A DNA stretch of 41,815 nt from Psychroflexus aestuariivivens (GTDB taxonomy: Bacteria; Bacteroidota; Bacteroidia; Flavobacteriales; Flavobacteriaceae). This document shows, piece by piece, positions 1 through 8,410 of the stretch. The DNA lies in the NCBI RefSeq assembly GCF_004010055.1, contig NZ_RQVT01000046.1:1-41815 (forward strand). Direction: 5' to 3'. The translations under genes and the position numbers were made by a program. How positions within the stretch are numbered: the stretch's first letter is position 1; every line of letters starts with the position of its first letter. The notes under the pieces were generated by a model, which saw nothing but the letters and a program-made list of their open reading frames with translations, had not been told where the DNA came from and made no database searches.

Positions 1-61
1 AACTTCTCGATACTATTTCAATAGCTTCTTATCGAATCTTTTGAAATCACTCGAAGTGACA
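1..61 (+). repeat. Cloverleaf repeat A, copy 1 (right half, cut by window edge)
   Basis: This is the right part of the A repeat described at 2848-2982. It starts at the inner arm TTCTCGATAC and ends with the outer arm CACTCGAAGTGACA. The left half lies outside the window, and the stretch between the two arms differs from the other copies. Confidence 0.75.
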
Positions 62-75
62 AATTTAGATTGAAA

Positions 76-112
76 GATATTAGATTTCAGATGTTAGACT
101 CATGAATTTGAA
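76..112 (+). repeat. Degenerate AT-rich module D, copy 1
   Basis: Short low-complexity module built of TTAGAT/TTTCAGAT words and ending in GACTCATGAATTTGAA. Close relatives occur near 2683-2720, 2810-2838, 3304-3335, 3524-3572, 4952-4997, 5208-5240, 7611-7650, 8066-8105 and 11466-11500, always between genes and in the same orientation. Function unknown. Confidence 0.6.
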
Positions 113-184
113 ACAGAAAATTTGAAATATTATGGCCTACAGCTTAAGATGCATAGCATTAAAACATATTTATGTAGTTTAAAT

Positions 185-1054
185 CTAACTGATCAAGTTC
201 CTGATGTAGGTGTAATATTCTCCTTTTTTGCCTTCAACTTTAACTTGGAGGTCGTTTTTGGTGAGCCAGTTTTGGCGGTAGGCGATTTCTTCCAAACAAG
301 CGATTTTCAAACCTTGGCGTTTTTCAATGGCATGAACAAATTGTGTAGCTTCACTTAAGGCTTCATGGGTGCCAGTATCCAACCAGGCAAAACCACGGCC
401 TAAAAGTTGAATAGCAAGTTTGTCTTCGTCCAGATAGGCTTGGTTGACCGATGTGATTTCTAATTCTCCGCGATGTGATGGCTTTACCATTTTGGCTTTT
501 TGAATCACTTCATTGGTGTAAAAATACAAGCCAACCACTGCATAGTTGGATTTAGGATGTTTGGGTTTTTCTTCTAAAGATTTGACGTTTCGGTTTTCAT
601 CAAATTCAGCCACACCATAACGCTCCGGATCTTTCACATAATACCCAAAAATAGTTGCTTTGCGTTCAGCCTCGAGCTTTTGAACGGCTGCTTTCAAAAT
701 CGGCACAAAACCTTGTCCGTAAAACAAATTATCGCCTAAGACCAAACAGACATCATCATTTCCAATAAAATTTTCACCTATGATAAAAGCTTGTGCCAAA
801 CCATCTGGTGAAGGTTGCACTTCATAAGATAAATTGATGCCATAAGCAGAACCATCGCCCAAAAGTTTTTCAAATAAAGGCAAGTCGTTTGGTGTAGAAA
901 TAATCAGAACATCTTTAATTCCAGCTAACATTAAAGTCGATAAGGGATAATAAATCATAGGTTTATCGTGAACTGGCAACAATTGCTTAGAGACGACTTG
1001 GGTTAATGGATCTAGTCTAGTGCCGCTACCACCGGCAAGGATTATTCCTTTCAT
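185..1054 (-). CDS. rfbA: Glucose-1-phosphate thymidylyltransferase
   Basis: Makes dTDP-glucose from dTTP and glucose-1-phosphate, the first step of dTDP-L-rhamnose and related sugar synthesis for surface polysaccharide; cytosolic. At 289 residues it has the usual family length. The N-terminus carries the nucleotide-binding signature LAGGSGTRL (residues 6-14) followed by SKQLLPV, and [10 protein letters not shown] lies near residue 105, as in RfbA/RmlA enzymes. It follows ugd on the same strand across an 83-base gap that contains a strong hairpin, so the two may be partly uncoupled. No rfbB, rfbC or rfbD lies within the window; they could lie beyond the left edge. The family assignment is firm; which final sugar it serves is not visible. 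Confidence 0.95.
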
Positions 1055-1095
1055 TATAATTGATTTTTTTGGTTATGGGTTTTCTATTTAAATAC

Positions 1096-1129
1096 AAAGG
1101 CGTTTTCATTTAGACTTGAAAACGCCTTT
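1096..1129 (-). terminator. Hairpin between ugd and rfbA
   Basis: A perfect 13-bp stem (AAAGGCGTTTTCA / TGAAAACGCCTTT) with an 8-base loop, only 8 bases after the ugd stop. The arm is followed on the minus strand by an AT-rich but not purely T run, so it may be a partial terminator or a processing and stability hairpin between ugd and rfbA. Confidence 0.6.
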
Positions 1130-1137
1130 TATACTTT

Positions 1138-2538
1138 TTAATTTCCTATAATATTTATTTTGAAACCGATCTCTTCCATTTTCAACTGATCAAGAATGCG
1201 TCGACCATCAAACACAAAGGCTGGTTTGTACATTTTTTCGTAAATGTCTGCCCAATCTAAAGTTTTGAATTCATCCCATTCCGTCATTACAGCGATAGCA
1301 TGTGCGTTATGGCAGGCTTCTTTCGCTGAACTGACGACTTTCACGCGTCTGCGAATTTCTTCAGAACTATGATGTCCTAGGTATTCCAAATCTGCATAAA
1401 TCTGTTCCGTTTTGACTTTTGGATCATAAACAATGATGTCTGCCTGTTCATTCAACAAATGATCTGACACATAAATCGCAGCAGATTCGCGGGTGTCATT
1501 CGTGTCTTTTTTGAAGGCCCAGCCCAACATTGCAATTTGCTTACCAGAAACTGTGTTGTATAGCGTTTTGACAATGTTTTTGGCAAATCGACGTTTTTGG
1601 TGATCGTTAAGTATAATGACTTGCTCCCAGTAATCAGCAACTTCTTCCAATCCCAAAGTTTTGGCTATATAGACCAAGTTTAGAATATCTTTTTGAAAGC
1701 AAGAGCCACCAAAGCCTACCGATGACTTTAAAAATTTAGAACCAATTCTGGAATCCATACCTATGGCACGCGCCACTTCATCAACATTAGCGCCTGTTCT
1801 TTCACAAACTTCACTCATCGCATTGATACTAGAAATTCGTTGTGCTAAAAAGGCATTGGCCGTCAATTTTGACAATTCTGAAGACCATACGTTAGTGGTT
1901 AAAATTTGTGCTTCCGGCACCCAGTGTGCATAAACATCAACCAGAGCTTTCATCGCTGCTTGACCTTTATCTGTATCTATATCTCCTCCAATCAAAATAC
2001 GATCAGGATCCAACAAATCATCAATAGCGGTTCCTTCGGCTAAAAATTCTGGATTTGACAAAATCTGAAAATCGACATCATTACCCGTGTTATGAAGAAT
2101 ATCCTGTAAGGCTTCAGCTGTTCTTACTGGTAAGGTTGACTTTTCTACTACAATTTTATCGTCTTTAGCTACACGAGCAATTTGACGAGCACAAAGTTCA
2201 ATAAATTTTAAATCCGCAGCCATACCTTTGCCCATTCCATAAGTTTTGGTTGGCGTATTGACAGAAATAAAAATCATATCGGCTTCATCGATAGCCTCCT
2301 CAACTTTAGTTGAAAAAAATAAATTCTTACCCCTAGTTTCTGCCACTATATCAGACAGTCCAGGTTCATAAATTGGGATGTTTTCCACATTCGGGTCGTT
2401 CCATGCAGCCACACGTTCAGCATTGATATCGACGACATGCACCTTGATTTCCGGACATTTTTGGGCAATCACTGCCATGGTTGGTCCACCGACATAACCT
2501 GCGCCAATACAGCAAATATTTTTAATTGATTTCGTCAT
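1138..2538 (-). CDS. ugd: UDP-glucose 6-dehydrogenase
   Basis: NAD-dependent four-electron oxidation of UDP-glucose to UDP-glucuronate, a precursor of acidic surface polysaccharides; cytosolic. The Rossmann motif GAGYVGGPT is at residues 12-20, the middle region carries [11 protein letters not shown], and the catalytic cysteine is Cys280 in [10 protein letters not shown]. The 466 residues and the INA-rich NAD region match the animal-like UGDH subgroup more than the short E. coli form. It reads towards rfbA, consistent with a sugar-nucleotide locus that continues past the left edge. The start at the ATG before [11 protein letters not shown] leaves almost nothing before the nucleotide-binding strand, as expected. 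Confidence 0.95.
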
Positions 2539-2847
2539 TGTACTTGATTATGATGTCATTAATTGATAATAGACTTTATGTTTATAATTTCTAAGTTATT
2601 GTCATTGAAAAGTTCTAGGCGAATTTATAAGAAAACTTTAAAAAAACAAGGCTACGAAATTAGATATTTTTTCTAGATTATTAGATATTAGATTTCAGAT
2701 TTGAGACTCATATATTTGAAGTTGTTGGCTTTTTTCATTTAGCTTAAAGTTTATTGCATAAAGCTTATAGCTGAAGAGAGGGAGATTTGGGGAGAGTGAG
2801 AGATCTTAGATTTAAGATGTTAGACTCATAAATTTGACATATCCTAC

Positions 2848-2982
2848 TGTCAGTTCGAGTGTTTATTACGGCTGGCAAGGATGTAATAGATGTATCGAGA
2901 ACTATTCATGATTTAGTTAGAATAACTTCTCGATACTATTTCCCTGCTGCTGATTGCATCAGTAAAATCACTCGAAGTGACA
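2848..2982 (+). repeat. Cloverleaf repeat A, copy 2 (short form)
   Basis: Best preserved short copy. The outer arms are TGTCAGTTCGAGTG (2848-2861) and CACTCGAAGTGACA (2969-2982), complementary at 13 of 14 positions. Inside lie three further helices: TTATTAC/GTAATAG (2863-2869 with 2883-2889), GTATCGAGAA/TTCTCGATAC (2892-2901 with 2927-2936) and CTGAT/ATCAG (2950-2954 with 2958-2962). Together they make a cloverleaf-like or cruciform fold. Related intergenic elements with TTCGAGTG and TATCGAGAAC words are known from Bacteroidota genomes; what maintains them here is unknown. Confidence 0.8.
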
Positions 2983-3054
2983 TTTTAGCTAATAGATTTG
3001 ACGTTTCTAGGTTTTTAAATAAAACTGATGATTTGTTAAGAAAAACAGCATTAT

Positions 3055-3300
3055 CTTTTTTAGCTCACCCTCGTTTCTATTGTTTTAAGTGTTCGTGAAT
3101 CTCCTAAAGTCGATTTGTCATCGCCCAAAAAAGAAACAAACCCCGAAGCGTCGGGGCTAGGCCGATTTTATAATACTGGAAATACTAAAAACAAGTCTGC
3201 CTCCTGCTATTCCAGCAACCGTAAACTACTGCTTCCATCGCCAGCCTGTCGCAGTCTTGTTTTTGCATTTCAGGCGCATTTTAAAAGTAAGCCGGTTTTA
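3055..3300 (+). repeat. Long intergenic repeat C, copy 1
   Basis: One of three related stretches of about 245-290 bp (others at 7774-8064 and 11188-11462). It starts near TTAGCTCACCCTCG, passes a GC-rich mini-hairpin (CCCCGA-AGCG-TCGGGG at 3141-3156), then has a well conserved core running from ACTGGAAAT past CTGCTTCCATCGCC, and ends near AAGTAAGCCGGTTTT. No open frame is shared by all copies, so it is a non-coding repeat or a decayed element. Confidence 0.75.
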
Positions 3301-3343
3301 TTAGATGCTTAGATGTTAGACTCACAAATTTGAAATATCCTGC

Positions 3344-3505
3344 TGTCAGTTCGAGCCTGCCCGACAAGGTCATTCAGGTGGGTGTTTAGTACGACCAGCA
3401 AGGGCGTAATAAATGTATCGAGAACTATTCGTGATTTAGTTAGAATAACTTCTCGATACAATTTTCCAATTCACTAGCGTTCATTGAAAATCACTCGAAG
3501 TGACA
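3344..3505 (+). repeat. Cloverleaf repeat A, copy 3 (long form)
   Basis: Same outer and inner arms as copy 2, but with an extra segment after the left outer arm that contains CCTGCCCGAC and later CAGG and can form a small additional hairpin. The segment just before the right outer arm differs from the other copies. Confidence 0.75.
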
Positions 3506-3670
3506 AATTTAGATTGGGAGATTTTAGATGTCAGATCTTAGACTCAAAAATCTAAAATGAAAAATTTGAAATAGAAAATTTGAAATATTCAAGCTTACAG
3601 CCTACTGCCTATCGCTTAAAGCTAAAAAGATTAAGACTGTTAATAATAAATTGTTATGTCTTTATGCTTT

Positions 3671-4753
3671 TTAATTTTCTAAAATGTTCATCAACTTTTG
3701 ATTTAGGTATAGTTTTTCTTTACCAACTCTTACTGATTTCAAAAAGCCTTTTTCTTCTAACGCCATCAAGTAGTTCCCAACTGTTTTTGGTGTTCCTAAG
3801 CCAACATCTATTAGGTTTTGTCTTTTTGTGTAAGGAAGCTTGAAAATGACTTCAACTAAATCTTTGGAATATATTTTTGGAAGTTTTTCTTTTATTTCTT
3901 GTCCGATTACCTCCATCAATTGAATAATTGATTCAAGTCTATCTAAGCCTTTAATTGCTGTTTCCTCTACCATGTCTAGCATGTAAATAATGAATACGGA
4001 CCAATCATTTTTTTCAGTAACTGCTCTTAAACCTTTGTAATATTGGTCTTTATGTTTGATGATGTATTCACTTAGAAATAGGGCAGGAATATCCAGAAGC
4101 TCTTCTAATTTTAATTGAAGCAAAAGTAGAATCCGACCTGTTCTTCCATTACCATCTAAAAATGGATGAATGGCTTCAAATTGGTAATGTGATATTGCCA
4201 TTTTGATTAAAGGGTCGATTGTATCATTATTATTTATGAAGGTTTCAAGATTGGCCATTTTTTCTCGAATGACGTCTTCACCTGAAGGAGGTGTGTATAT
4301 TATTTCTCCATTTGTATTCGATAGTGTTGTTCCGGGCGTTATTCTTATTCCAGCTGTATTTTGTTTAATACATTGAACAATCTCGATACATAAATTAGTG
4401 GTGATAAAAGGTTTTTTTTTAAGGCTCTTAAAGCCAAGCCAAATAGCTTCTTTGTAGCTGATTACTTCTTTAGTTGCAGGGTTGTCGAATTTTTTATCCG
4501 CAACAACTGCTCGGTATAAATCGTCATTTGTTGTAATGATGTTCTCAATTTCAGAACTTGCCTTTGCCTCTTGTAAATGAATGGTGTCAAGAAACAAGCT
4601 AGGATTCGGTAGGTTTCTTATTGCTCCATTTAATTGAGCTAATGCTCTACTCGCTTTAATTGTTTTTGTTAAGATTTCTTTTGTTTCCAAGTCTGCTTTG
4701 GGTGGAAGTAGAGGAAGATTATTAAAGGGTTTGGATTTATCGAAGTTATTCAT
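3671..4753 (-). CDS. Fic family AMP-transferase, class II, with C-terminal winged helix
   Basis: Fic proteins transfer AMP (or another phosphate-linked group) from a nucleotide to target hydroxyl groups. The catalytic motif HPFLDGNGRTGR begins at His196, fully canonical. The N-terminal Fic_N part contains SSEIEN (Ser66, Glu70, Asn71), matching the inhibitory (S/T)xxxE(G/N) motif placed before the Fic core as in class II proteins; its glutamate normally blocks ATP gamma-phosphate binding. The last 70 or so residues (GTPKTVGNYLMALEEKGFL) look like a winged helix-turn-helix. At 360 residues the gene appears intact. It stands alone, with no antitoxin-like partner. Three GTAAA/TTTAC palindromes lie just upstream, suggesting self-repression through the winged helix (inference). 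Confidence 0.92.
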   Translation of the reverse strand: MNNFDKSKPFNNLPLLPPKADLETKEILTKTIKASRALAQLNGAIRNLPNPSLFLDTIHLQEAKASSEIENIITTNDDLYRAVVADKKFDNPATKEVISYKEAIWLGFKSLKKKPFITTNLCIEIVQCIKQNTAGIRITPGTTLSNTNGEIIYTPPSGEDVIREKMANLETFINNNDTIDPLIKMAISHYQFEAIHPFLDGNGRTGRILLLLQLKLEELLDIPALFLSEYIIKHKDQYYKGLRAVTEKNDWSVFIIYMLDMVEETAIKGLDRLESIIQLMEVIGQEIKEKLPKIYSKDLVEVIFKLPYTKRQNLIDVGLGTPKTVGNYLMALEEKGFLKSVRVGKEKLYLNQKLMNILEN

Positions 4754-4760
4754 AAACGAG

Positions 4761-4773
4761 TGTAAATTTTACA
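4761..4773. promoter_or_regulatory. Operator-like palindrome 1 upstream of Fic gene
   Basis: TGTAAATTTTACA, a perfect 6-1-6 dyad centred at 4767, ending 7 bases before the Fic start codon. It shares the GTAAA-N-TTTAC core with the two dyads further upstream. Confidence 0.55.
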
Positions 4774-4799
4774 TCTGTGTATTAATCAAGGGTAAAAAT

Positions 4800-4814
4800 A
4801 AGTAAAATTTACTT
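4800..4814. promoter_or_regulatory. Operator-like palindrome 2 upstream of Fic gene
   Basis: AAGTAAAATTTACTT, a perfect 7-1-7 dyad centred at 4807, 40 bases from the centre of palindrome 1. Confidence 0.55.
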
Positions 4815-4831
4815 CTATCGGGTTGTAAAAG

Positions 4832-4842
4832 GTAAATTTTAC
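4832..4842. promoter_or_regulatory. Operator-like palindrome 3 upstream of Fic gene
   Basis: GTAAATTTTAC, a perfect 5-1-5 dyad centred at 4837, 30 bases from the centre of palindrome 2. The 40 and 30 base spacings are near whole numbers of helical turns, as expected for cooperating dimers. Confidence 0.5.
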
Positions 4843-5095
4843 TCTTGTTTTATCGCATGAGGCACAAATTGCAATATATCTCAAGGCTGTAATTACATTT
4901 GGCTTACTTGTTTATAGCTTATTGCTGAAGATGAGGAGATTGAGAAAGAGGAGATATTAGATATTAGATTTCAGATATTAGACTAATAAATTTGAAATAT
5001 TTTGGCTTATAGCCTACTGCCTATAGCTTAAAGCTAAGGATTGGGAGATTTGGTGAGGGGGGAGATTGGTGAATTTCAGGTTACAGGTTGTTGAG

Positions 5096-5206
5096 ATTCC
5101 GCATAAATTTCTTAGGGGATTTTGCGGAATGATAGTTTGTTGTGAATGACTCGTGGTTCTTGTGTCCTGTGTCCTGTCTCCTGTTTCTAGGTTCTTTTCT
5201 CCAAAC
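5096..5206 (+). repeat. Hairpin repeat B, copy 1
   Basis: Begins with an inverted repeat ATTCCGCA ... TGCGGAAT (5096-5130) whose stem extends through AAATTTC, then a shared tail with words such as GACTCGTGGTTCTTGTGTCC and CTGTTTCTAGGTTC. Other copies are at 8529, 11064 and, weaker, 11598. Confidence 0.75.
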
Positions 5207-5263
5207 TGTTGATTTCAGATGTCAGACTCATGAATTTGAAATGAAAAATTTGACATATCCTAC

Positions 5264-5398
5264 TGTCAGTTCGAGTGTTTATTACGGCCGGCAAGGACAT
5301 AATAGATGTATCGAGAACTATTTATGTTTGAATTACAAAGACTTCTCGATACCATTTCCCTGCTGCTAACCGCATTAGTAAAATCACTTGAAGTGACA
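5264..5398 (+). repeat. Cloverleaf repeat A, copy 4 (short form)
   Basis: 135 bp, same length as copy 2. The small fourth helix reads CTAA/TTAG here against CTGA/TCAG in copy 2, a compensatory pair change. The right outer arm is CACTTGAAGTGACA, with one change. Confidence 0.8.
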
Positions 5399-5539
5399 TT
5401 GAGATACTCAAATTTAAAATGAAAAATATGAAATATCGTGAAACTTAAAAATGTATCGAGAACAAGTTATGCTTTCTTCTCTCTACTCTGGATTGAAATG
5501 CAAATTAGCCGACTGCTAAATTCGTGTACTACAAAAAAT

Positions 5540-6550
5540 ATGTTTAATTTTAGAAAAAAAATCATGTTGAGCCGATATATCCTCTTTCTAGTTTGTTTCA
5601 TAAATATGGGTTTATGGGCTCAAAAGCCAGGAAATTCAGACGCGTTTGCACATACATTCTCAATTCTAGCTCGTGATTCTGAAACTGGTCAAATGGCTGT
5701 GGGCGTCCAAAGTCATTGGTTTTCCGTGGGAACTGTTGTACCCTGGGGACAGTCTGGCGTAGGCGTAGTGGCAACACAATCTTTTGTCAATGAAGCTTAT
5801 GGCTATGAAGGCCTGAAACTCATGTCCAAGAACATGTCACCAGCCAAAGTTTTGGAACAATTGCGCAACAAGGACGAAGGCCAAGTATTCAGGCAAGTCG
5901 CTATGATGTCTAATAATGGAGAAATTGCAGCCTTCACTGGCAACAAATGCGTGCAAGATGCCAGGCATATCATAGGTGAAAATTATTCTATTCAAGCCAA
6001 TATGATGGTCAGTGAAAATGTGGTTTATAATATGCGTCAGGCTTTTGAAGAACATTCCGATTTAGCCTTGGCAGAACGCGTCGTCAAAGCCTTGGAAGCC
6101 GGACAAGCAGCTGGCGGAGACATTCGCGGTAAGCAATCTGCTGCATTGATTGTGGTTGATTCTAAACCTAGTGAATTGCCGTGGAATGATAAGTTGGTGG
6201 ATTTACGGGTAGATGATCACAACCAACCGATTCAGGAGTTATCACGTTTACTAAACGTCCATCGTGCCTATGAATATATGGCAAAGGGTGATTTAGCCAT
6301 GGAAGAAGGCAATGCAGAATCCGCTTTAGAGGCTTATCATCAGGCTGAAAAATTATTGCCAAATCAAGATGAAATTCAATTTTGGAAAGCGGTAGCTTTA
6401 GTCAATGCCAAACAGGTCAAAAACTCGATTCCAGTTTTTGAACGTTTATTTAAAAAGGATAAAAAATGGCAAGAGCTCTTAAAGCGACTTCCAGCATCTG
6501 AATTAATCGCTATTGACCAACCCGCACTAGATTATCTTTTAAAACTTTAA
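5540..6550 (+). CDS. Exported DUF1028 family protein with TPR-like C-terminus
   Basis: DUF1028 proteins share the Ntn-hydrolase fold; their substrate is not established. The domain starts at AHTFSILARDSETGQMAVGVQS and continues through VGVVATQSFVN, all typical. The last 90 or so residues (AYEYMAKGDLAMEEGNAESALEAYHQ onward, in pieces) look like one or two TPR repeats. An N-terminal signal peptide ending at GLWAQ predicts export. The open frame extends upstream to 5438, but that part crosses a repeat remnant, so I prefer the ATG at 5540; the ATG at 5564 (MLSRYILFL) is equally possible. Only two bases separate it from the next gene, another Ntn-fold hydrolase, so they form an operon. Confidence 0.82.
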   Translation: MFNFRKKIMLSRYILFLVCFINMGLWAQKPGNSDAFAHTFSILARDSETGQMAVGVQSHWFSVGTVVPWGQSGVGVVATQSFVNEAYGYEGLKLMSKNMSPAKVLEQLRNKDEGQVFRQVAMMSNNGEIAAFTGNKCVQDARHIIGENYSIQANMMVSENVVYNMRQAFEEHSDLALAERVVKALEAGQAAGGDIRGKQSAALIVVDSKPSELPWNDKLVDLRVDDHNQPIQELSRLLNVHRAYEYMAKGDLAMEEGNAESALEAYHQAEKLLPNQDEIQFWKAVALVNAKQVKNSIPVFERLFKKDKKWQELLKRLPASELIAIDQPALDYLLKL

Positions 6551-6552
6551 CT

Positions 6553-7593
6553 ATGAAAAAAATTATATTACTTATCAGTCTATGTCTTTTAGCTGCATGC
6601 CACGACAGTCCAAAAATAAGTAAAGGCAAACCTAAAGTTAAATCTGCCAAATACGGCATTGTAATTCATGGTGGAGCGGGTTACATTACCAAATCAGGAC
6701 TCTCAGATTCTCTTCAAGAGGCTTATCATCAGAAATTAGAAGAAGCCATTAAACGCGGTCATCTTGTTTTAGAAAACGGTGGCACAGCGATGGAAGCTGT
6801 TCAAAAAAGTATTAATATTTTAGAAAATTCGCCTTTATTCAATGCTGGTAAAGGCGGTGTACTGAATGCGAATGGTGAAGTAGAAATGGATGCTTCTATC
6901 ATGAATGGGGAAAACAAAAATGCTGGTGCAGTCGCAGGCGTTCAACGCATCAAAAACCCGATTAATCTGGCTAGAGATATTATGATTAACTCACCACACG
7001 TCATGCTTAGCGGGACTGGTGCAGAAGCCTTTGCCATAGATCAGGGTTACGATTTGTTGGACAAATCATATTTTATTACCGCTAAAAGTCAGCGTGCCTT
7101 GGAAGCCGTTCAAAAAAGACAATCTTCTAAAATTTCTAAGGTTGATGCGACTTTTATTCAAAATAGAAAGTTTGGCACAGTAGGTTGTGTGGCTTTGGAT
7201 CAGGATGGTAATTTGGCTGCAGGCACGTCTACGGGCGGTATGACCAACAAAAAATGGGGACGCATCGGCGATTCACCTGTCATCGGTGCAGGCACTTATG
7301 CCAATAATGAAACCTGCGCCATTTCTGCCACTGGTCATGGTGAATATTTTATCAGAAATGTGGTAGCTTACGATATTTCAGCAATGATGGCGTACAAAGG
7401 CATTTCTTTGAAACAAGCTGCTCAACAGGTCATTCAGAAAAAATTAGCTGCTTTGGGCGGTGAAGGTGGCATCATTGGCATTGATCAAAAAGGAAATATG
7501 GTTGCTGAATTTAACACTCCCGGCATGTTCCGCGCTCAAATGAATTCGAAATCTGAAATTAAGATTGAAATGTTTGGAAAAGGTGTGGATTGA
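6553..7593 (+). CDS. Isoaspartyl peptidase / plant-type L-asparaginase, lipoprotein
   Basis: Hydrolyses L-asparagine and/or beta-aspartyl dipeptides. It is made as a precursor that cuts itself before the nucleophile threonine. That residue is visible as Thr209 in KFGTVGCVALD, followed by the conserved AAGTSTGGMTNK and GAGTYANNETCAISATGHGE segments (substrate-binding loops). The N-terminus IHGGAGYI is canonical. The first 16 residues form a lipoprotein signal with lipobox LAAC (Cys16), so the enzyme is probably anchored in the periplasm or at the outer membrane, while E. coli IaaA lacks such a signal. It sits in a two-gene operon behind the DUF1028 gene, suggesting work on damaged or exported peptides (inference). 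Confidence 0.92.
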   Translation: MKKIILLISLCLLAACHDSPKISKGKPKVKSAKYGIVIHGGAGYITKSGLSDSLQEAYHQKLEEAIKRGHLVLENGGTAMEAVQKSINILENSPLFNAGKGGVLNANGEVEMDASIMNGENKNAGAVAGVQRIKNPINLARDIMINSPHVMLSGTGAEAFAIDQGYDLLDKSYFITAKSQRALEAVQKRQSSKISKVDATFIQNRKFGTVGCVALDQDGNLAAGTSTGGMTNKKWGRIGDSPVIGAGTYANNETCAISATGHGEYFIRNVVAYDISAMMAYKGISLKQAAQQVIQKKLAALGGEGGIIGIDQKGNMVAEFNTPGMFRAQMNSKSEIKIEMFGKGVD

Positions 7594-7773
7594 AGCTGGT
7601 TTCTTTAGATGCTTAGATATTATATTTTAGATGTTAGAACCCTGTATTTGAAGCTATTGGCTATTGGCGGTTGGCTGGAGATTTGGTGATTAATAATCTG
7701 AGGTTTAGAATTTTAGGTTTTAGATTAACTGATGTTTTCGGAAGAAAAACTTTCTTCTTCAAATATACATTCT

Positions 7774-8064
7774 ATTCTTTTTTAGCTCAGCCTTGTTTTT
7801 GTTTAAGTGTTCGTGAATCTCATGAAGTCAATCTCTATTGATAAAGGCTTTTCCATTCTTTTTTCCATTGATGAAATCCCGAGGGGTCGGGAGAATCAAA
7901 CCCCGAAGCGTCGGGGCTAGGCAAATTTTAAAATACTGGAAATGCTAAAAACAAGTCTGCCTCATGCTATTCCAGCAATCGTAAACTACTGCTTCCATCG
8001 CCAGCCTGCCGCAGCCTTGTTTTTGCCTTTCAGGCGTATTTCAAAAGTAAGCCAGTTTTCTTTA
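7774..8064 (+). repeat. Long intergenic repeat C, copy 2
   Basis: The longest C copy. Beside the hairpin CCCCGA-AGCG-TCGGGG (7901-7916) it has a second one of the same design, TCCCGA-GGGG-TCGGGA (7877-7892). The core from ACTGGAAAT to AAGTAAGCCAGTTTT matches copy 1 closely. Confidence 0.75.
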
Positions 8065-8224
8065 GATTGGTAAATGTTAGATTTCAGATACAAGACTTTT
8101 AAATTTTAAGCTGTTGGCTTTTTGCATTTGGCTTACTTGTTTAGAGCTGGAGATAGGAAGATTTGGTGAGGGGGAGATTGGGGTTTTTAAATTTTGAATT
8201 TTGAATTTCTGGTTTCCGATTGGC

Positions 8225-8410
8225 TGTCAGTTCGAGCCTGCCCGACAAGTTCATTCAGGCGAGTGTTTATTACGACCGGCAAGGGCGTGATAAATGTACT
8301 TCGACTATGCTCAGTAGAGCTATCGAGAACTTTTTATATTTGAGTTACAATGGCTTCTCGATACAATTTTCCTGCTGCTGACCGCATCCGTAAAATCACT
8401 CGAAGTGACA
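8225..8410 (+). repeat. Cloverleaf repeat A, copy 5 (long form with insertion)
   Basis: Long-form copy with outer arms at 8225 and ending 8410. The second helix is well formed: TTTATTACG (8266-8274) with CGTGATAAA (8286-8294). A 24-base insertion (8298-8321) containing ACTTCGACTATGCTCAGTAG splits the start of the inner arm. That word resembles TTCGACTnnGCTCAGT motifs common in other Bacteroidota intergenic repeats. Confidence 0.78.

Follow-up and report, generated by a model that had tools for sequence, protein, structure and literature searches.

A REP-like hairpin repeat of Psychroflexus aestuariivivens and its association with a GIY-YIG nuclease gene in related bacteria

Introduction

The described systems closest to repeat A, a dispersed repeat in a stretch of 41,815 nucleotides (the window) of Psychroflexus aestuariivivens (RefSeq assembly GCF_004010055.1, contig NZ_RQVT01000046.1), are the repetitive extragenic palindromic (REP) elements. 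According to the part available to us of the survey by Di Nocera et al. (2013, PMC3733652), the class known as CGTC REPs carries an unpaired CGTC tag, often TGTC or CCTC, and occurs mostly as head-to-head dimers in hosts that include Bacteroidetes, with G. forsetii named as CGTC-positive. The same part of that paper reports neither a tyrosine transposase flanked by these repeats nor any dedicated enzyme, and the spread of CGTC REPs was left open there because no attached transposase gene had been found.

The window corresponds to the entire contig C5 of a 3.1-Mb genome in 64 contigs that is 99.98% complete. Here we report that repeat A is probably a non-autonomous REP-like mobile element, whose partner in related bacteria is a small GIY-YIG nuclease with its gene in the spacer of a hairpin pair in about half of the loci. 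This gene–repeat association, found in the genomic sequences of dozens of related bacteria, suggests an enzyme that spreads the repeats.

Results

Structure of the Repeat Ends

The unit of repeat A consists of two inverted hairpins with TGTC/CGTC tags on the outside (head-to-head) and a short spacer between them. Each end reads as tag, lower stem A-S-TTC, GAG, upper stem-loop, CGA, and then GAA-S'. In the ends associated with one nuclease clade (clade A), a 5-bp lower stem is followed by a GAG/CGA internal loop and a long, freely exchangeable upper stem, with a median of 32 nt between the fixed parts. We gathered 434 ends from 80 loci using a TGTCA pattern with one mismatch allowed. They start sharply with Y-G-T-C-A (T 0.55 and C 0.43 at position 0) and their flanks are near background; the tag letters are biased toward the search pattern, whereas the sharp outer edge is not. 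An earlier sequence-only reading of the window had taken consistent copy ends as the mark of a real element and had proposed a REP-like nature; consistent ends are what we found, and the proposal is supported by the sharp tagged ends, by the arrangement of the hairpins in head-to-head pairs, and by covariation of the stems between genera.

Association with a GIY-YIG Nuclease Gene

Using a 151-base query, we found the repeat in 11 of 40 genomes searched (that of the window included), ten of which belong to the genus. In relatives the copies form arrays, and several arrays contain a small open reading frame that encodes a GIY-YIG nuclease (PF01541, E-value 4.3e-19 in locus L097). A protein search of 27 genus and 196 order genomes, with order loci limited to best matches, gave 56 nuclease loci. 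The arm plus the TATCGAGAA/TTCTCGATA inner-hairpin motif was present in the locus (up to 1.5 kb on each side) for 18 of 18 homologs with at least 60% identity versus none of 38 with 42–59% identity, eight of the latter having a stray motif of one kind.

We then used the best 80 of at least 426 loci found by protein alignment alone, which by their titles come mostly from Flavobacteriia and from many genera; one of them (P. curvus) is also the G013 locus of the genus set. A repeat motif was located within 1 kb of the gene in 78 of these 80 loci, and 76 had at least two. Motif density was 4.99 per kb near the gene versus 0.32 farther out, and GAG/CGA hairpins stood at 8.99 per kb up to 100 bp from the gene but at 0.22 per kb at 2–3 kb (0 to 0.16 per kb in four other stretches used for comparison). 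Based on the nearest elements under looser motif matching, the inner helix encloses the gene in 41 loci, whereas the gene is between units in 17 and placed otherwise in 22. Where hairpins flank the gene on both sides (67 loci), the nearest ones have their tags outside in 36 cases and inside in 14. Since 45 of the 80 loci have no neighboring gene family in common with any other locus, the link between nuclease and repeat does not come from one conserved neighborhood.

Several of the relatives' loci have unusual forms. In G013 (C34:6991-9748) eight GIY-YIG domains follow one another in a row with a spacing of ~364 bp, a tandem expansion. At their C-terminus, the GIY-YIG frames of L110, L111, and L121 continue into repetitive peptide stretches (VAFDSAQST, VERSRN), which hairpin repeats overlapping the end of the gene seem to encode. 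In L104 (G010), arrays with a period of ~24–26 bp (units such as GTTGATGTTAAAACAGGGGGAA and GTTTCAAGTTCGAG) flank another GIY-YIG gene on both sides.

Other Nuclease Clades and Wider Distribution

GIY-YIG loci outside clade A were examined by counting all internal-loop triplet pairs. Once 4-bp stems were used and both strands merged, GAG/CGA ranked first of 2,077 classes; in a first ranking with 5-bp stems, its forward form had been outside the top 15 and its reverse form fifth. After removal of duplicates, 124 distinct GAG/CGA hairpins with 28 lower stems were detected versus 10.0 expected, in 38 of 51 loci. Before this removal (nine genes occurred twice) the count was 200 versus 9.5, in 47 of 61 loci. 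Both counts left out the clade-A loci, the C27 locus of the P. aestuariivivens genome itself, and L092, and the de-duplicated one dropped one more overlapping locus.

For a tree we used 85 non-redundant genes, clade A included, the 80 named loci having been thinned to every fourth. At least one GAG/CGA hairpin was present within 1 kb of 70 of these genes, 69 of which fall in a clade of 71 (SH-aLRT [Shimodaira–Hasegawa approximate likelihood ratio test] support 89, from few columns). Outside this clade 13 of 14 genes lack a hairpin, and the fourteenth is the small GIY-YIG gene on contig C27, ~0.8 kb from a repeat copy. This gene, considered as a partner of the repeat in its own genome, was rejected, as it groups outside the hairpin-associated clade with the 13 hairpin-less loci. 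By eye, the lower stems tend to follow the nuclease clades (CCCT, GTCT, AATC, GGCT, and GTTC/CTTC), the GTTC stem being common to two subclades.

With a CCCT-clade protein as query, 73 of 395 Bacteroidota genomes gave a match. In 27 of the 30 loci kept, GAG/CGA hairpins were found, 173 in total versus 11.0 in shuffles, with 5–26 for seven control triplet pairs. Among plasmid records of Alphaproteobacteria, three of four loci (two from Methylobacterium and one from Sphingomonas) have such hairpins, with stems unlike those of clade A, flanking the gene on either side in opposite orientation. The tags of the Methylobacterium hairpins point toward the gene, and CCTC-AT precedes the stem.

The Nuclease

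The clade-A nuclease is a small, stand-alone protein of ~95 residues. Y5, Y15, G17, and R25 are invariant in all 18 clade-A homologs, and E63 is present in 17 and replaced by Asp in one G008 copy. The catalytic Tyr, Arg, and Glu of GIY-YIG nucleases are among these conserved residues. The predicted fold (mean predicted local distance difference test score 82.7) has as its best Foldseek match the UPF0213 protein BH0048 (1zg2, E-value 2e-5), followed by weak matches to EF2693 (1ywl, 0.01), Slx1 (0.058), and I-TevI (2.4). BH0048 and EF2693 are solved UPF0213-like structures, and SLX1 is a branched-DNA nuclease. By Pfam and Foldseek, the clade-A nuclease has the same fold as SLX1 and the UPF0213/stand-alone GIY-YIG proteins, with the active-site residues kept. 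Judged from its coding sequences, the nuclease is under purifying selection: the ratio of nonsynonymous to synonymous substitution rates (dN/dS) is 0.05–0.18 (median 0.107) in the six of 120 pairs with usable dS. Among the matches listed in a literature search of open-licence PubMed Central (PMC) papers, none linked GIY-YIG proteins with palindromic repeats, which does not prove absence from print.

Evidence for Pairing

Point changes in the P. aestuariivivens genome alone are no proof of pairing. Over 12 of its copies, 96.0% of cells are paired versus 95.8% in shuffles, with 177 of 500 shuffles as good, and one pair is altered on both sides. The sequence-only reading had folded the copies into a cloverleaf possibly under selection, citing a compensatory change from CTGA/TCAG to CTAA/TTAG in a small helix and a G-T wobble in copy 5. 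The change does occur in copies 2 and 4, but the small helix pairs in only six of 11 copies of this genome that have the module; the wobble is real, but its helix has unpaired cells at four of nine pairs in other copies. We rejected the cloverleaf as the basic unit, as no covariation was found on these copies. The two-hairpin reading accounts for one G.G mismatch in the outer helix of the cloverleaf and a C.C in its inner helix, since the bases concerned find their partners inside their own end.

It takes the sequences of other genomes to establish structural conservation: this one genome shows no covariation beyond shuffles, and selection on a hairpin structure is supported by the covariation of stems across genera. 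The variable lower-stem position S is G-C or C-G in 181 of 191 distinct ends (three G-G, no C-C, and seven other), although, to the detriment of this evidence, the covariation is largely one difference between left and right ends with the other bases fixed by the scan, so that independent events are far fewer than 181. All 23 distinct ends of the P. aestuariivivens genome pair at this position. The upper stems are a stronger test of pairing than position S: their mean length is 8.26 bp versus 4.97 after an exchange of 5' and 3' halves between ends (maximum 5.30; none of 200 runs as good), and 189 upper-stem segments include 52 distinct stem starts (first six bases).

Co-occurrence of Gene and Repeat

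Exact ends occur in all 11 order genomes that have a clade-A gene with at least 60% identity versus 15 of 185 without it (Fisher's exact test, 2.5e-11). Within the genus, the median is 13 ends in the seven genomes with the gene versus one in the 20 without (p = 0.0012). The genome of the window has 16 exact ends and no clade-A nuclease was found in it, a family profile search included, though an assembly gap may hide one; its copies therefore look orphaned. By eye, the arrays of G001 and G008 seem to differ by whole units.

How the nuclease might act can be sketched by analogy, and we infer from the above that mobilization, cutting, and movement are its work. It would recognize the GAG/CGA hairpin, either in a cruciform extrusion or where a replication fork exposes it, and, as in REP systems moved by REP-associated tyrosine transposases (RAYTs), would cut near the tag of the hairpin pair. 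Repair of the break might then copy, move, multiply, or delete hairpin pairs, and those without a gene would be passengers.

Several observations weigh against this interpretation. Association does not establish a mover role, and the nuclease could be a homing gene living in the repeats. Ends without a clade-A nuclease in 15 order genomes, that of the window among them, indicate that copies can persist or spread without it: G036 (63 ends) and G206 (11 ends) have no match to the family profile, and G042 (16 ends) carries a related but stop-containing frame. In G056 (25 ends), and within the genus in G041 (50 ends), a more distant frame is intact but not beside clade-A ends. No repeat motif accompanies the gene in two of the 80 named loci, nor hairpins in three of the 30 Bacteroidota loci or in the fourth alphaproteobacterial locus, whose gene has a stop; the gene of M. 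aquaticum, at a locus with hairpins, is apparently frameshifted. Ten of the 69 hairpin-associated genes in the clade of 71 have a single hairpin, some perhaps by chance. The 13 stem changes on the tree come with no shuffled-label comparison, and the tree is built from few columns. Moreover, no clean empty site was seen at two sites in four Psychroflexus genomes, where the flanks were too diverged.

In the homing alternative, the GIY-YIG gene would encode a stand-alone homing endonuclease and be housed in the hairpin pair, a parasite of repeats moved by something else. A gene at one equivalent place, the pair spacer, in 41 of 80 loci would suit it, as would the weak structural match to the homing nuclease I-TevI and the order genomes with repeats and no nuclease. 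The 17 loci with the gene between units do not fit it, and the combination of other lower stems with the same GAG/CGA loop in other nuclease clades resembles co-evolution with the hairpin; in addition, no RAYT-like mover was found in the genome of the window, other movers not having been searched for. We regard this alternative as unlikely.

A classical REP/RAYT system, with the repeats moved by a Y1 tyrosine transposase encoded elsewhere in the genome, was one possibility raised by the sequence-only reading. It is not supported: the genome has a single Y1_Tnp match, on a contig with no repeat A match, in a 152-amino acid gene with short flanking hairpins of its own that looks, on reading, like an ordinary IS200. 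The tagged head-to-head pairs do resemble REP dimers, but the tag is YGTCA, not GTAG, and such a system is hardly to be expected here. Equally hard to credit is a miniature inverted-repeat transposable element, with the outer arms as terminal inverted repeats for a DDE transposase elsewhere. The sharp inverted ends and the gene-bearing and gene-less forms would agree with it; however, the carried gene is a nuclease instead of a DDE transposase, and no target-site duplication was seen by eye at the repeat copies, DDE genes bearing such ends not having been searched for.

Copies in the Window and in the Rest of the Genome

Four full copies had been described in the window together with a half copy. 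The former are present as copies 2–5, their helices included (table 1); the latter, at 1-61, is a repeat cut by an assembly break, as the first 57 bases of the window are also the end of contig C15, which bears the left half of copy 1. Contigs C64 and C36 meet inside a repeat A copy in the same way, so that the repeat interrupts the assembly and gives a hint of how the contigs are ordered. The copies are modular. Two of those in the window have an extra left-arm hairpin, and one of these a 23-base insert as well; across the genome, third hairpins are exchangeable and inserted hairpins appear in either arm, as seen by eye. The GAG/CGA hairpin scan missed the right arm of copy 4, due to one C to T change, and found the right hairpin of copy 5, the left one exceeding its length limit.

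Table 1. Features of repeat A in the window
Feature	Position	Strand	Details
Copy 1, right-hand hairpin only	2-61	+	Left half on contig C15; GAG/CGA hairpin with TGTCA tag at 3-56 (-)
Copy 2, head-to-head hairpin pair	2848-2982	+	Left hairpin 2848-2903, right hairpin 2925-2982
Copy 3, head-to-head hairpin pair with extra left-arm hairpin module	3344-3505	+	Left 3344-3426, right 3448-3505
CCTGCCCGAC...CAGG hairpin module inserted in left arm of copy 3	3356-3382	+	
Copy 4, head-to-head hairpin pair	5264-5398	+	Left 5264-5319, right 5341-5398
Lone TATCGAGAAC piece of a left hairpin	5454-5463	+	
Copy 5, head-to-head hairpin pair with two inserted modules	8225-8410	+	Left 8225-8331, right 8353-8410
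CCTGCCCGAC...CAGG hairpin module inserted in left arm of copy 5	8237-8263	+	
ACTTCGACTATGCTCAGTAGAGC module inserted in copy 5	8298-8320	+	Overlaps small GAG/CGA hairpin 8297-8316 (-)

A blastn search (151-base query, E-value up to 0.001) gave 22 repeat A matches on seven contigs of the P. aestuariivivens genome, 20 of them on five contigs with polysaccharide genes (C5, C27, C28, C36, and C64). Among ten proteins picked by eye from these five contigs, Pfam assigns nine to polysaccharide or sugar-nucleotide families and shows one to be NusG-like. All 20 matches appear by eye to be oriented opposite to the adjoining polysaccharide genes, which may reflect local duplication or an orientation bias.

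This setting bears on a further alternative, that the repeats are maintained for a role as structured RNA (terminators, mRNA stabilizers, or leaders of polysaccharide operons) and that the link to the nuclease is a by-product of shared repeat-rich DNA. Besides the placement of the 20 matches, RNA folding speaks for it: the two copies tested, 2 and 4, fold with z-scores of -6.07 and -6.29, none of 200 shuffles being as good. On the other hand, an Rfam scan of the window gave no family at the gathering threshold, and the repeats of relatives are mostly beside other kinds of genes (by eye). Such a role would also leave unexplained the YGTCA tag, the whole-unit differences between arrays, and the position of a nuclease gene within the pair, as found in many genera. 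We consider it very improbable.

Other features of these regions were noted. A second dispersed repeat of 171 nt, at 3132-3302 and 7892-8062 of the window (92% identity), contains a CCCCGAAGCGTCGGGG palindrome. An AT-rich module like AGATGTTAGACTCATGAATTTGAAA has nine copies in the window (89-113, 2815-2839, 3311-3335, 5217-5241, and five more), several of which stand just upstream of repeat A copies. The NusG-like gene (L024, 12677-13156, on contig C28), amid polysaccharide genes, is possibly a locus-specific antiterminator. Short genes that we take, by eye, to be of four-helix-bundle type (C27:6165-6518, C27:40700-41053, and C36:13452-13832) are scattered in the polysaccharide loci.

Discussion

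On balance, though with less assurance than for the nature of repeat A itself, we favor the view that this GIY-YIG subfamily provides the long-missing dedicated enzymes of a superfamily of CGTC/TGTC-tagged, GAG/CGA-looped REPs, in at least Bacteroidota and Alphaproteobacteria. If so, REP systems would have arisen twice independently, here and with RAYTs, and gene-bearing hairpin pairs of ~400 bp would rank with the smallest known mobile elements that are autonomous. With a nuclease gene in or beside the hairpin pair in many genera and lower stems that vary with the nuclease clade, the spread of CGTC REPs becomes directly testable. The association would also give a cause for a palindromic repeat family of Flavobacteriia, the copies that break draft assemblies included, and it points to GIY-YIG enzymes as possible drivers of the spread of repeats. 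G. forsetii is itself a flavobacterium.

Among the matches listed in our search of open-licence PMC papers, no report of a pairing between GIY-YIG proteins and REP-like repeats was found, absence from print being unproven. The available parts of two papers citing Di Nocera et al. (PMC6006769 and PMC12306157) contain no occurrence of GIY-YIG.

Compared with CGTC REPs, as far as they are described in the available part of PMC3733652, the repeats reported here have the same unpaired CGTC/TGTC/CCTC tag, and the complete P. aestuariivivens copies are likewise head-to-head with tags outside, whereas in Methylobacterium the tags face the gene. The stems of CGTC REPs are 8–9 bp long and start with AT, and their loops have 4–5 bases, whereas clade-A ends start with A and then G/C; the GAG/CGA internal loop, the long variable upper stem, and the attached GIY-YIG nuclease are further differences. 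Because tag and dimer form are shared and stem and loop sizes are not, we place the repeats near, not inside, the CGTC REP families as these are known from that part of the paper.

The likeness to GTAG REPs and their RAYTs (REPtrons) is one of organization. As described in part in PMC3733652 and PMC6006769, these systems also have short, tagged, inverted hairpin pairs, gene-less copies that are scattered, a single small gene for a dedicated enzyme with repeats on its flanks, and apparent co-evolution of enzyme and repeat. Their enzyme, however, is of the HUH/Y1 type and their tag is GTAG, whereas the enzyme here is a GIY-YIG nuclease and the tag is YGTCA.

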